64,000 nucleotides of DNA from Desulfovibrio sp. (GTDB taxonomy: Bacteria > Desulfobacterota > Desulfovibrionia > Desulfovibrionales > Desulfovibrionaceae), in assembly GCA_031279825.1 (NCBI GenBank), contig JAITHT010000070.1:1-64000 (forward strand), written 5' to 3'. The translations under genes and the position numbers were made by a program. The notes beneath the pieces were generated by a model. It saw only the letters and a list, made by a program, of their open reading frames with translations, was not told the DNA's origin and searched no databases. Below, in pieces: positions 6,146-42,685 of this stretch (its first letter is position 1; every line of letters begins with the position of its first letter).

Positions 6146-7198
6146 TTATAGCTCCAACGTCAACAGACGCTCGGCCGCCGCGTCGGGATCATTCTCATAT
6201 ACCCGGGCCGCGGGCGGACGGTTAAGAACTTGCCTGGCATAGGCGCGATCGTAATAGCCGAGCAGAATACCCGCCAGATGCGGCAGATCCCCCTCTTCCA
6301 GACTGGCCAGGGCGCGACGGTGTTCCAATCCTCCCAGGCGTTTTTTGATACGCTCAAGGCCCCGGCGGATGTCTTCGCGAGGCAAATCGCCGTAGTCTTG
6401 CAGCACACGGGCCAGCCGCGCCGCATCGGAACTTTCCAGAATCACCATGGGAGACGCCCGGAGATGGAGAAAAAACGGCCGGGGCAGATTGACGCCGCCC
6501 AGATTTTCGCATTCGTCCTCAACCCATACGGGCAAACGGGAATCCTTCGCGGCAAGGGCAAGGGCAAGGGTGTTCTCAAATTGCTCGCGCGAAGGCTGCG
6601 TCGTACCGGCAAGGGCGCCGAAGGCCGAGCCCCTGTGCCGGGCCAGATTTTCCAAATCCACCACTTGCGCCCCTCTGGCGGCCATACGTTCCAGCACCAT
6701 GGTCTTGCCGACCCCCGTCTTGCCGCCGAGCACCCGCAAGTTCACAGGCCGCTCAAAAACGGCAAGCGCGTGGCGTCGAAAACTTTTATAGCCGAGATCC
6801 AGCACGTGAACGCAAAGACCCGTGGAGGAAAGCAGCCAACCGACAGCGGCGCTGCGCATGCCGCCCCGGCTGCAGTAGAGCGCGATTTCTCCGGCGGCGC
6901 GCCGCCGGCACAAGGCGCGCCCCGCCTCGGCCAGCGCCGCGAGCCTGGGCCCGACATGCCCAAGGCCGCGCATCACAGCCTCCTCTCTGCCTTTTCGCGC
7001 GTACAGCTCGCCGACCTCGGCCCGTTCCGCGTCGGAAAAAAGCGGAATATTGACGGCGCCGGGAATATGCCCCCCGGCGAACTCCAAAGGCGAACGCACA
7101 TCCGCCAGCGGCACGCCGTCGGACAGCGCCCGCCCGGCGGCGCACACCGCGAGAAACTCCTCAACGCACAGACGCCGGACGCCGGACGCTCCGCTCAT
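6146..7198 (-). CDS. selU: tRNA 2-selenouridine synthase (SelU/MnmH)
   Basis: Replaces sulfur by selenium at 2-thiouridine-34 of Lys, Glu and Gln tRNAs using selenophosphate. The N-terminal rhodanese domain begins PLADVRSPLEFAGGHIPGAVNIP and has the catalytic loop YCSRGGMRS. The C-terminal P-loop is GGKTGVGKTMVLERM, followed by the VVDLENLARHRGSAFG segment typical of SelU. The ATG overlaps the stop of the sensor kinase (ATGA), so translation is coupled to it. Length of 350 is normal. Together with the UGA-containing HesB gene at 41.5 kb it shows the organism has an active selenophosphate supply. Confidence 0.95.
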   Translation of the reverse strand: MSGASGVRRLCVEEFLAVCAAGRALSDGVPLADVRSPLEFAGGHIPGAVNIPLFSDAERAEVGELYARKGREEAVMRGLGHVGPRLAALAEAGRALCRRRAAGEIALYCSRGGMRSAAVGWLLSSTGLCVHVLDLGYKSFRRHALAVFERPVNLRVLGGKTGVGKTMVLERMAARGAQVVDLENLARHRGSAFGALAGTTQPSREQFENTLALALAAKDSRLPVWVEDECENLGGVNLPRPFFLHLRASPMVILESSDAARLARVLQDYGDLPREDIRRGLERIKKRLGGLEHRRALASLEEGDLPHLAGILLGYYDRAYARQVLNRPPAARVYENDPDAAAERLLTLEL

Positions 7199-10100
7199 TG
7201 TTCCCCGCGGGCACGCAGGAGAGTGCCGATATGCCCCAAAACAGCGGACAGTTCCGCCGCGAACACGGGCATGGCAAGGCAATAATCCATGCCCAAAGCC
7301 AGCACGCGCTCGCGCTCGGCCGCCATGGACTGGGGCGTCAAAGCCACCACGGGAATATCTTCGGTAACGGCGAAAGCGTCACTTCCGGCCGGGGCATCCG
7401 TCCCAAGAAGGGCGCAAACGTTCGAACCCGGCCGTATGCCGGCGGTATCGCCGGCGCGCAGACGCCTCACCAGTTCCTCCCCGTCCATGACCGGCATCCG
7501 TATATCCGTAATAACACAATCAAAGGAACGGAGCATAAGCGCTTCCAGCGCCTGGCGCCCGTTGCCCACACAAACGGAGGTGTGCCCCGCCTGGTGCAGC
7601 ATGGCCCGCAAGGCGCACTGATCGGAAGGGTCTTCTCCCGCTACCAGAACGTCCAGGGAACGGGAAGCGTGAGTTTCAGCGGCAAAAAGCTCCGGGGATT
7701 CGGACGCCGCCTGCCGCGGTTCGTCAAAGGGCAGGGAGCAATGCACGATGGTGCCCCTGCCGACAACGCTCTCCACTCCGAGGGAACCGCCCATGAGACT
7801 CGCCATTTTACAGGCGACGGCAAGGCCGATTCCCGTACCCGTATACGGCGGAGCATCCCCCTTGCCGGCGAAGGCGCGGGAGAGATCTTCAAGCGCCTCT
7901 CTCGGCATGCCCGAACCCGTATCTCGTACTTCAATAAAAATCAATACGCTGCCATTTTTTTTCCGGGGCAGGAGCGCGCATTCAATGCGGATGCCCCCCC
8001 GCGCGGTGAATTTGAAGGCGTTGTCCACCATATTGACGAGAATCTGGCGTACCCTGGCGTCATCGCCGATTAACGCGCCGGGAATGCCCGCATCCATATT
8101 CAGCTTGAAGCCTATTTTCTTCCGCCCCGCCTGATGGGCGAACATGGCTACAGCCGAGCGGACTGTTGAGGGAAAATCAAACAGATGCGGGGAGAATTCA
8201 ATGGCGTCCGCCTCAATGCGGGAAAAATCAAGCAGGTCTGAAATACCGCGCAACAGGCCGAGTCCGGAATAATTGGCCGTGAGCATCCATTCCTGCTGGG
8301 TCTCGGACAGGGGAGACTGCTGCAGCGCCTGGAGCATTCCCAGTATGCTGTTAAGCGGCGTGCGCAGGGAATGTCCGAAAGCGTTCAGAAGTTCGGTTTT
8401 CGCGCGATCCGCCGCCTCGGCCTCGTCCTTGGCCCGCCGCAGGGCCAGAGTGCGCCGGCGCCGGCGCACGCAGAGCCACAGATCGTTAACGAGCGGAATG
8501 AGCTGCCGCAACTCAGCGGTATCATACTCTCCGTCCTTATCGGCCACGGCGGCTACGCAGACGATATTCCCCTCATCCAGCGCCGTCGCGAGCATATAGC
8601 GCGCGACAGGGCATTCGCCGCCGAAAATATCGGCGGCGCGCCCGTCGGCGGCATTCACCAGTTCAGCCATATCCGGGCTGAGCCGCTCCGTTTTCCTGAA
8701 CAGGGACACATCGCGCACAAGAGGCGGGAAGTCGCCGGAAGAAACACACTCCCCGTCCTCGCGGGACCAGTACAAAGTCCCCCTCTCGCCCTCTCCCTCT
8801 CCTGTTATGTACAGATAGGCGAGACGGCTGCCCGCCAGACTTTTCGCCTGCTCAATGGTGAAACGCGCCGCCTCTTCCTCGGAAAACTCGTCCATGCGCA
8901 AAAAGGTATGCGTAACGGCAAAAAAAGGTTTATCCGGACGCTCCTTATCCTGCCCCGCCGTTCGGAGAGCTTCCGCGACTTCTCTGGTGACGAGACAGGC
9001 CACACGGCCCTTTTCAGGCGAATAGGCAATCAACGCGAAACGCTGGGCGGCAACGCTCACAAGACCTTTCACCGGCTTGTTTTCCGTAAGCGCGAGGCGA
9101 AGACACTCGGCCCATGCCCGCGCGTCTTCCCCTATGACTTCGTCCAACCGCTTGCCCACCACTTTAGCGGCCTTCACAAAAAACATGCGGCTGAAAGAGG
9201 CGTTTATGCTCACCAGAGAAAATGTTCCGGCGCCGTACGCGGACGATTCGTCCCTCCGGCCGGCATCGTGTTCCAGAAGGACGAAACCGTCTTCCATGGC
9301 GTTAAGCAGCGCGTGATAATTATCCTTCATGCGACGGGATGAGGTCATATCCCGCAGCACGACGGTGACGGAACTCACGTTGCCGTCTCCGCTGAATTCC
9401 GGCTGAAAACGGCAATCCGCGATAAACTCTCCCGTCAGTGACGAAAGAAGGCGTATCTCTTCCTGAAAAGGTATGCCCACTTCAAAGACCTGGCGCAGGT
9501 TCTCCTCAAAAAAAGCAACTTCTCCAGAAATATCAATATCTTGCAGGTGCTTTCCCAAAAGTTGCTCAGGGAGCGCGGCTGAATAGCGGCTGAAGTTCGG
9601 ACTGATGGAAAGAATACGCCCCTGCCTGTCGAAACAACCGACAACATCAGGAGAATCCCCTCCCGTCAGGGCGCGGAAAAATTCGCCTTCGGCCTGCAGG
9701 GCTATCTCCGTCTTGCGTTGCTCGGTGATGTCCCGCAGAACGGCTATGATGCGCCGAACCTTCCCCCCTGCGGCAATGCCCACGGCAAGCAGCACTCCCC
9801 ATCCCCATACGGACTCCCCTCGCCTGAAACGCAATTCCAGACTCAACATTTTGGCGACGCCGCTGAGCAGGCTGTCAAAACGGGCATGAAGGGCCGCGCG
9901 GTCAGAGGGATGCACATGCCGGACAAAGGTCTCAAAGGGGGACTCCCCTCTGCGCCGCGTTTGCGCGCCTATAATTTCGCGCCAGCGTGACGAGGTGTAC
10001 AGTGCGCCGCTCGGCAGATCCCAATCCCACACGCCTTCATGGCATAACTGCAAAACGGGGCAGGAACGCAGGCAATCGCCGTCGCGGCGGCTTTCTTCGG

Positions 10101-26770: not shown

Positions 26771-27517
26771 GTGCCGAGACGCTATCTTCAAGGGACGCTG
26801 GATTTCGCTTGCGGTATCTATGCGGTCATTAACGCGCTTGCCTGCGCGCGTGGCCTGGATCTGGTCGGGGCGCGGCGCATCTTTCAGGAAACCGGCATAG
26901 CTCTGGCGGAAAAGCCGGAGTTGTGGCGGAGCTTCATGCGCAACGAGACGGATCAGTACTGGCTGGTGCGCTACATGCTGCGGCGCTGGTGCCGCGCCGA
27001 CCCTTGGAAATTGTGTCTGCGCCAGCCTTTTTCAGACTGTCTGCTGCAGGCGGAAGAAACGGCGGATCTGGCCGGAGCGGAGATGTTCCTGCCTGAGGCT
27101 GAAGAGGAGAGCGGTCCTCCCCTCCTTGACAGGGCCCGGCGGGAAGCGGCCCTTGTTTGGCGACAACTTGAGAAATGGTTGAGCCCCGGGGGGCGGGATT
27201 GGCCGGGGCGCACGGCGCTGTTTCGCTTTCACCGCTTTCTCCGGCACGACGTCCGCCCGCCGGCGCAGGACTCCCATCCGCTCCGCCGGCGGGCGGGGGG
27301 GAGCAAGGTGCCCGGCAAACTGCGCGGGACGCCGCCGTGCATCTCCCACTGGACGAGCGCCCGCGGCATGGCCGACGGCCTGCTGTACCTGCACGATGCC
27401 AGTTCCGAAGCGAACGCCCTGCTCCGCCTGGAACCGGCGGACCTGTTGCCTGAAGACGGCAGCAGGGGCATGGTCCGCATTGTTCCGGAATCCCTCGTCC
27501 TGCTTGAGCCGGAGTGA
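26771..27517 (+). CDS. papain/C39-like cysteine-protease-fold protein
   Basis: A 248-residue protein whose N-terminus GTLDFACGIYAVINAL has the look of a C39/papain-like catalytic cysteine helix (CGxxAxxNAL). A C-terminal HWTSARGMADGLLYLHDASS block would supply the His and the Asp/Asn. The residues between (~100-180) are helical and Arg/Pro-rich. No signal peptide or ABC transporter domain. Start is GTG with GGGGAGC eight bases upstream. No neighbouring peptide or radical-SAM gene. Protease activity is inferred only from the motif pattern; a non-proteolytic member is possible. Confidence 0.55.
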   Translation: MPRRYLQGTLDFACGIYAVINALACARGLDLVGARRIFQETGIALAEKPELWRSFMRNETDQYWLVRYMLRRWCRADPWKLCLRQPFSDCLLQAEETADLAGAEMFLPEAEEESGPPLLDRARREAALVWRQLEKWLSPGGRDWPGRTALFRFHRFLRHDVRPPAQDSHPLRRRAGGSKVPGKLRGTPPCISHWTSARGMADGLLYLHDASSEANALLRLEPADLLPEDGSRGMVRIVPESLVLLEPE

Positions 27518-41004: not shown

Positions 41005-41133
41005 GAATATTTTCACTTTGAAAATAGCTCCGTCAACCGGCAGCGTAAGCGTCGGCTCTCGTGCATGAGGAGTAGGCGAAACTTGTTTTCGCCGAAGGCG
41101 ACGAGTGCAACGTTTCAAAGTTAATCTGCTCTA
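41005..41133. repeat. dispersed repeat A, copy 5 (near full length)
   Basis: About 129 bases, from GGAATATTTTCACTTTGAAAATAG to CGTTTCAAAGTTAATCTGCTCTAG. Inside are GGCAGCGTAAGCGTCGGCTCTCG and GGCGAAACTTGTTTTCGCC. Its right end supplies the TAG stop codon of the HesB gene at 41131. With copy 6 it defines the element. Confidence 0.85.
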
Positions 41134-41445
41134 GACGTCGCCAGCGCAGCCGCTCCGGCAGGATGCGCAGCCGCCGGCGAAGCCTTCTTCGGATTCTATG
41201 CTGAAACCTCTGTCTGAGAAGTCCAGGGTAATTTTTTTGAGTACGCGCAAGAGTTCTTTATTAACGCAAAAAACATACTCTTGCGCGACAAACACATCAT
41301 CGGAATCGCTCGGAGAATCCAGCGCCAGGGACAGACTAGGGCCGTTGCATCCCCCAGGAGCAAGGCAAACGCGAATCGGCGATTTTTCCTTGTCGTCAAA
41401 ATAGGCATCCAGTTCTTTGCAAGCGGCATCGGTAACGACAATCAT
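41131..41445 (-). CDS. HesB/IscA family protein, cysteine form
   Basis: Iron-sulfur carrier/scaffold fold of 104 residues. MIVVTDAACKELDAYFDDKEKSPIRVCLAPGGCNGPSLSLALDSP has the first conserved Cys in GGCNGP; the C-terminus GGCASCRSGCAG is Cys-rich, replacing the usual CGCG. It is a paralogue of the next gene upstream and aligns with it through the whole length, with Cys where that protein has selenocysteine. Start with a CTGGGGAG-type site. Stop lies in a repeat A end, so the original C-terminus may have been altered. Confidence 0.85.
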   Translation of the reverse strand: MIVVTDAACKELDAYFDDKEKSPIRVCLAPGGCNGPSLSLALDSPSDSDDVFVAQEYVFCVNKELLRVLKKITLDFSDRGFSIESEEGFAGGCASCRSGCAGDV

Positions 41446-41504: not shown

Positions 41505-41834
41505 CTATTGCCCGGGGCCGCATCCGCCTGCCGACGCGCAGCTTCCGCATTTGCTTCCCGTATCGGACAAGGGGGTTTCAGATTCAACAGAAAAGCCCAT
41601 ATACGAATAGTCGACAGTCACATGGGATACTTGGGCAAGCAACTGCTTGTCCATACAAAAGTTGTATCCCTTCTCCTCAGCCTTGGTATCTGTAATTTTA
41701 GGCTCGTCCAGAGCCAACGCGAGTCTCGGCCCGCTTCAGCCTCCCCCGGACAGGAAAACCCTGATGGAACTTGGAGGATTGCCTTCAAAATAGGCATCCA
41801 ACTCTTTTTTAGCGGAATCCGTCACTGTAATCAT
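41505..41834 (-). CDS. HesB/IscA-like selenoprotein (in-frame UGA = Sec)
   Basis: A 109-residue protein if the UGA at 41736-41738 is read as selenocysteine. Before it: MITVTDSAKKELDAYFEGNP...IRVFLSGGG; after it: SGPRLALALDEPKITDTKAEEKGYNFCMDKQLLAQVSHVTVDYSYMGFSVES. The UGA sits exactly at the first cluster-ligand Cys of HesB/IscA (GGU-SGP versus GGCNGP in the neighbour), and homology continues in the same frame. HesB-like selenoproteins are known from deltaproteobacteria. Start ATG has GGAGG five bases upstream. A possible GC hairpin follows the UGA. A conventional gene finder would call two broken genes here. Confidence 0.9.
41711..41738 (-). promoter_or_regulatory. candidate bacterial SECIS hairpin region after UGA
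   Basis: On the minus strand the bases after UGA can pair GGGCC with GGCUC/GGCUCU around a ~12-nt loop that ends GUU, with a bulged U possible on the 3' side. Distance from UGA is suitable for a bacterial SECIS, but the structure was judged by eye and does not exactly match the E. coli fdhF form. Confidence 0.35.
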
Positions 41835-42100: not shown

Positions 42101-42685
42101 ATGTCAGGTTCTTCAATTCCTATTATGTCACTCTCTTCCTGTAAGTCGGGTCCACTTATCTCATCTTCGGATATGGCGCGCATTTTTGACGCTCTGACGG
42201 ACAACCTGCTAAAACGGTACAGTAAATGCCGGGATTTCGCCCTTATAGGCATCCAGCGTCGAGGGGTAAGTATAGCCGAGGAACTTTGCGATCGTATGTC
42301 CCGCAAACTTGGGATATCCGTACCTGCCGGTTCCCTTGATATCACCCTGTATCGGGACGACTGGACCACCAAAGGCCCCAAGCCTTCGGTCGGCGAGACC
42401 CTCATCCGTTTTGATGTTGAGGGCAAAAACCTTGTCCTGGTGGATGACGTCTTATATACTGGGCGTACGGTCCGTGCCGCCCTTGAAGCGCTGGCGGATT
42501 TCGGCCGGCCGAGTAAAATCGAATTGTTGGTGCTGGTGGACCGCGGCCATCGCGAACTGCCTATCCATGCGGATTATGTGGGTGTACGCTGTCCTACGGA
42601 CAAGGGAGACCACGTGAACGTGCTGATGCGGGAGATCGACGGAGAGCAGGGAGTGCGCCTCGTCACCAGATCAGTTGCAACGTAA
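42101..42685 (+). CDS. pyrR: bifunctional pyr operon regulator / uracil phosphoribosyltransferase PyrR
   Basis: PRTase-fold protein. MARIFDALTDNLLKRYSKCRDFALIGIQRRGVSIAEELCDRM, DITLYRDDW and the PRPP loop NLVLVDDVLYTGRTVRAALEAL are characteristic; the C-terminus LVDRGHRELPIHADYVGVRCPTD is typical of PyrR. Length (194) is normal. The ATG is preceded by GGAGG. In Gram-negatives it may act mainly as an enzyme or lost its attenuation role. It is divergent from the selenoprotein gene and followed by ndk. Confidence 0.93.
   Translation: MSGSSIPIMSLSSCKSGPLISSSDMARIFDALTDNLLKRYSKCRDFALIGIQRRGVSIAEELCDRMSRKLGISVPAGSLDITLYRDDWTTKGPKPSVGETLIRFDVEGKNLVLVDDVLYTGRTVRAALEALADFGRPSKIELLVLVDRGHRELPIHADYVGVRCPTDKGDHVNVLMREIDGEQGVRLVTRSVAT

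Follow-up and report, generated by a model that had tools for sequence, protein, structure and literature searches.

A gene on the minus strand of the window (by which we mean the whole 64,000-nucleotide [nt] stretch of DNA analyzed), at 41505..41834, encodes a member of the IscA/HesB family, and its in-frame UGA codon, at 41738-41736, is almost certainly read as selenocysteine (Sec), to judge from sequence comparisons. We are highly confident of the reading as a whole: the product would be an A-type protein with Sec as a ligand, decoded by means of a SECIS element and SelB, and the neighboring gene, which has Cys at the same position, would derive from an older Sec form.

The Sec gene starts with ATG at 41834-41832, 5 nt after a GGAGG ribosome-binding site (41844-41840, minus strand), and ends with TAG. 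Among its 109 codons there is one in-frame UGA, codon 33 (41736..41738, minus strand; context GGGUSGPRLALALDEP). Translated with UGA as Sec (U33), the complete 109-amino acid (aa) protein runs from MITVTD to GCGPGQ and has a Cys-rich tail with Cys96, Cys99, and Cys105, the spacing of the first two being C-X2-C. A preliminary description of this DNA had placed a HesB/IscA-like gene with an in-frame UGA at these coordinates, with a GGAGG site, a clean start, and homology in frame on both sides of the UGA. It was correct in all of these points and lacked only the strand.

The homology across the UGA can be seen in two family profiles. The Sec protein matched NF038090 (IscA_HesB_Se) with 109.3 bits (9.7e-32; cut-off, 85) over residues 1 to 98, and the Cys paralogue matched it with 98.7 bits; both copies cover the full profile above the curated cut-off. 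The match of the Sec copy to the Pfam family Fe-S_biosyn (PF01521) also spans the UGA (1e-8; 35.8 versus a gathering score of 26.3), and the Cys copy, at 25.9, fell slightly below that gathering score. The in-frame UGA of the window gene is aligned to the Cys of homologues, with homology on either side of it, the pattern by which bacterial selenoprotein genes are recognized. Other profiles were more distant. The score against TIGR01911 (HesB_rel_seleno) was 32.4 bits, below the cut-off of 66.35, and the window proteins scored 18 to 30 bits against the IscA, SufA, and ErpA equivalogs, the cut-offs of which are 117 to 181. A PHROGs search gave a match to one family, annotated as function unknown.

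In an alignment to Escherichia coli IscA (1r94), counted by hand, residue 33 corresponds to Cys35 and Cys96 corresponds to Cys99. An AlphaFold model of the Sec protein (pLDDT, 79; low confidence in the last 18 residues) had as its top PDB matches IscA with and without a [2Fe-2S] cluster and SufA (1x0g, 1s98, and 2d2a). The alignment and the predicted fold support the placement of the UGA-encoded residue at the first cluster-ligand position, as the preliminary description had proposed, and we infer that the Sec protein binds a cluster.

Comparison of the Sec and Cys copies located a putative SECIS hairpin, GGCUC-UGGAC-GAGCC, at 41701..41715 (minus strand), with an apical loop that begins 25 nt after the UGA. 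All five stem pairs are formed in 111 of 111 distinct Sec copies, from this and other families, and in only 1 of 62 Cys copies (the sequences are related, so that neither these counts nor those given below are independent trials). Nearly all of the 111 Sec copies have the consensus GGCUC-UGGAY-GAGYC. In the tree, the one Cys copy with the five pairs, L020_C, branches beside the Sec copies of the genus to which it belongs; it may therefore have arisen recently from a Sec copy. Compensatory double changes occurred at three of the five stem pairs, giving GGUUC/GAACC at three loci outside the family (L188, L190, and L197), AGCUC/GAGCU at L153, and GGCCC/GGGCC at L158 (genome G170). In the last case a U-A pair became C-G, and a conserved Glu became Gly (LALALDGP). 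That the pair was retained despite the loss of the Glu suggests that at L158 RNA structure prevails over protein sequence. Counted from the UGA, codons +8, +9, and +11, which encode the A, L, and E of A-L-D-E, are GCT, CTG, and GAG, each in 68 of 68 family Sec copies. The same codons are variable in the 62 family Cys copies, GCT being present in 7, and of the 387 other Ala codons in the Sec genes only 71 are GCT. The adjacent Cys copies thus serve as a built-in negative control and pin the hairpin to the base.

The preliminary description had suggested a search for a SECIS element downstream of the UGA, and the window hairpin fits the published model for bacteria. That model allows a loop of 3 to 9 nt, a stem of 4 to 16 bp, a distance of 16 to 37 nt from the UGA to the loop, and a minimum free energy of no more than −7.5 kcal/mol, and it needs a G within the first two loop positions (PMC13188914). 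The window hairpin has a loop of 5 nt that begins with UGG (a G at position 2, then another G), a stem of 5 bp, a distance of 25 nt, and an energy of −8.1 kcal/mol with its flanks; the bare 15-nt hairpin, at −6.9 kcal/mol, is slightly short of the energy limit. When folded alone, the hairpin was ∼29% populated, an upstream stem being in competition with it, and five pairs at these places arose by chance in 2.8% of random synonymous sequences (same protein, codon usage of the window). Consequently, the case for a SECIS element rests on the comparison of copies, a single fold being weak evidence. The minimum-energy fold with the 5′ flank contained an alternative hairpin with its loop ∼10 nt from the UGA, which we ruled out because the comparison of Sec copies favors the hairpin at 25 nt. 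An Rfam search of the locus matched no RNA family, a result that is neutral with respect to SECIS.

We used family searches to judge which genes of the Sec machinery are present in the window's genome, an assembly of 2.23 Mb in 94 contigs that is 83.5% complete. Both selA (542 bits; cut-off, 268) and selB (340 bits; cut-off, 242) were found. Also present was a full-length gene for the alpha subunit of formate dehydrogenase (1292 bits, over the cut-off); its only in-frame TGA lies in the context QARVUHSPTVAALAESFGRGAMTN. In the window itself, at 6146..7282 on the minus strand, is selU/mnmH, which encodes tRNA 2-selenouridine synthase, a user of selenophosphate (NF008750, 319 bits; cut-off, 241); the preliminary description had pointed to this gene as well. 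Neither selC, the gene for tRNA-Sec (best match, 38 bits), nor selD (no match reached the cut-off) was found in this 83.5%-complete assembly, and the weak tRNA matches that we inspected were Ser, Leu, Arg, Gly, and other tRNAs. The same gap exists in G120, an incomplete genome of the same genus that has a UGA copy. The preliminary description had proposed looking for selA, selB, selC, and selD and had named the absence of selB or selC as grounds for abandoning the Sec reading. The absence of selC formally holds for this assembly. Because two UGA genes have been retained together with selA, selB, and selU, we attribute the failure to find selC and selD to gaps in the assembly, and the incompleteness of the assembly is a better explanation than true loss.

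Across the family, the UGA copy goes with tRNA-Sec. Among genomes at least 90% complete, 22 of those with tRNA-Sec have a UGA copy and 4 do not; the corresponding numbers for genomes in which tRNA-Sec is absent are 0 and 13 (Fisher's P = 2.9e-7, from two fully listed searches and only indicative because the genomes are related). Within the window's genus (G119 to G132), strong matches to both tRNA-Sec and selD were found in G119, G121, and G123 only, most of the others having neither, and most of the relatives without them that carry a HesB gene have a single Cys copy only. It looks like Sec decoding has been lost within the genus. One genome there, G123 (L065 and L076), combines tRNA-Sec with a selD that itself contains a UGA, but its HesB is of the Cys form only, and no formate dehydrogenase scored above the cut-off. 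Its selenophosphate-producing SelD may therefore be one of the few selenoproteins left in that organism.

Two explanations would take the UGA out of use as a Sec codon. If the lineage had lost selC and selD, the UGA would be a genuine stop and the gene a relic, producing a 32-aa peptide or a fragment from an internal start while the Cys copy did the work. The failure to find these two genes in the window's assembly and the state of most other genomes in the genus, which lack strong tRNA-Sec and selD matches and, where they bear the gene, mostly have only the Cys form, would both be expected. A relic is nevertheless very unlikely: the frame, the Cys tail, and the hairpin are all intact, as are selA, selB, the selenophosphate-dependent selU, and the full-length formate dehydrogenase gene with its own UGA, and none of the 13 near-complete genomes without tRNA-Sec has kept a UGA copy. 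The other explanation, that the codon is truly TGC, TGT, or TGG and was misread in sequencing or assembly, has in its favor only that the assembly is fragmented into 94 contigs. Its probability is negligible given that a homologous TGA occurs in 113 Sec copies, from the window's genome and others, and that all of these have the hairpin missing from Cys copies. A UGA-bearing copy was found in more than 100 genomes, and because the UGA recurs in most of the gene-carrying genomes of the family and phylum, its presence at codon 33 is no chance event. Comparative RNA evidence, selA and selB, the UGA-containing formate dehydrogenase gene, and the association with tRNA-Sec thus all favor Sec insertion, the reading given in the preliminary description.

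The Cys paralogue (41131..41445, minus strand; 104 aa) has the motif GGCNGP and lies downstream of the Sec gene in the same direction, with 59 bp between the stop of the one and the start of the other. On the other side, pyrR (42114..42685, start approximate; plus strand; NCBIfam PyrR over the cut-off) is divergent, as it is upstream at 57 of 81 related loci. Apart from this gene, the surroundings of the Sec/Cys pair showed no conserved operon partner, so that the neighbors offer no functional lead. (A search for related loci with a single protein as the query gave five loci only.) Elsewhere in the window, at 26771-27517 on the plus strand, is a 248-aa open reading frame without an NCBIfam match.

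Matches to NF038090 were found in 264 of 288 genomes of the bacterial family, the Desulfovibrionaceae, and very often a copy with one TGA and a copy with none lie on one contig a few hundred bases apart. At the 49 examined loci with both copies, these are always on the same strand and 59 to 742 bp apart; the Sec copy comes first at 38 and the Cys copy at 11, the order differing between genera. The preliminary description had singled out the side-by-side pair as worthy of attention. The pair is real, but because it is widespread and its locus is conserved beside pyrR, it is a trait of the family at an old locus and no peculiarity of this genome. We also noted some irregular copies. In genus g39 (L037 to L048) the Sec/Cys pair is followed in tandem by a third HesB paralogue in which the first ligand is gone (e.g., SFMSESGPRLEL), an indication that the fold can be retained without that Cys or Sec. 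The Sec copy at L069 and L072 (G121) changes frame at about codon 27, a frameshift of either the gene or the assembly; one family member (G473:C66:233-529) has two in-frame TGA codons; and G016 has at least eight NF038090-related copies, several of them with TGA and below the cut-off.

The direction of change can be judged from the phylum. Among the matches listed over the cut-off in a sample from outside the family, the UGA copy occurs in 90 genomes, in 15 of them together with a copy with no stop, and a further 7 genomes have only copies with no stop. Since the Sec-only state is dominant outside the family, Sec is likely the ancestral state and the Cys copies are likely derived. The preliminary description had suggested duplication followed by replacement in either direction; the data support duplication and replacement, probably from Sec to Cys. 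In a weakly resolved tree built from ∼108 columns, a grouping of all Sec copies into one clade is rejected (p-AU, 1.7e-9); the well-supported branches require at least eight changes of state, and at several well-supported places Sec copies join Cys copies from the same genus. Cys copies were probably derived repeatedly, or with gene conversion between neighbors, and the tree fits both. In the window's own genus the Sec and Cys copies tend to separate, with modest support, and so the pair there probably predates the radiation of the genus.

A single ancient duplication homogenized by gene conversion would explain why the gene or pair keeps one place, next to a divergent pyrR, at 57 of 81 loci, and why the examined pairs are always on the same strand and so close together. 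Against it, the order of the copies varies between genera, and the grouping of Sec with Cys copies of the same genus, with the p-AU value given above, would also be expected if duplication had occurred separately many times, with a change from Sec to Cys after each; we lean slightly away from the single duplication. There is also room for doubt about function. The tail motif of IscA is C-X-C, unlike the C-X2-C plus a further Cys of the window protein, and the protein might use the IscA fold for Sec/Cys redox chemistry or for metal scavenging instead of carrying Fe-S clusters. The third paralogue of genus g39, which does without the first ligand, fits such a role, as does the report that, in Methanococcus, mutation of the gene for a distantly related HesB-like selenoprotein left nitrogen fixation unimpaired (PMC11097638). 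We consider this role rather unlikely because the ligand position is kept and the model matches the fold of IscA and SufA structures, among them 1x0g, which holds a [2Fe-2S] cluster.

Under the reading that we prefer, the gene product would be an A-type (IscA/HesB-fold), carrier-like protein with Sec as its first metal ligand, and we infer that it carries Fe-S clusters or metal. SelB with Sec-tRNA-Sec would bind the hairpin at 41715-41701 and deliver Sec at the UGA, which precedes the hairpin loop by 25 nt. Translation would then complete the Cys-rich tail, and Cys96, Cys99, and Cys105 together with U33 would form the cluster or metal site. The neighboring Cys version, needing no selenium, could be a selenium-independent stand-in. 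Cys copies would arise by tandem duplication and Sec-to-Cys replacement, after which the SECIS hairpin would decay. More tentatively, and with some doubt, we suggest that the family keeps the two ligand versions side by side as a pair for selenium-replete and selenium-poor conditions, repeatedly re-created or homogenized, and that only the Cys copy survives where Sec decoding is lost. If so, the locus would be a natural replicate experiment on selenium as a cluster or metal ligand. With pairs at one locus throughout and an apparent loss of the Sec trait in one genus, the family is a comparative resource of modest interest, in which the exchange of Sec and Cys at a probable metal ligand is replicated many times.

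The Sec gene of the window is a further member of a catalogued selenoprotein family. Both window copies are full-profile members of NF038090, the short name of which points to selenium; nothing distinguishes the Sec copy within that family, and the Cys copy has diverged further. As the preliminary description stated, HesB-like selenoproteins are known from deltaproteobacteria. They were reported for Desulfovibrio vulgaris and Desulfovibrio desulfuricans in 2006 (PMC1794560), and DVU_1382 of D. vulgaris was listed as one in 2007 (PMC1914089). These proteins come from the same bacterial group and are of the same UGA-containing kind as the window gene; unlike the window, the relevant passages of the two accounts describe no adjacent Cys copy. 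The earlier account, covering the bacteria known at the time, counted two replacements of Sec by Cys in HesB-like proteins (PMC1794560). We found no description of a tandem Sec/Cys HesB pair in the open-access literature. TIGR01911 (HesB_rel_seleno), listed in PMC13188914, shares the fold and the UxGP motif with the window proteins, which are far under its cut-off (32 versus 66 bits). The fold and the first ligand position are also common to the window Sec protein and IscA, SufA, and ErpA of E. coli; compared with E. coli IscA, the window protein has Sec for Cys35 and, in its tail, Cys96-X2-Cys99 plus Cys105.
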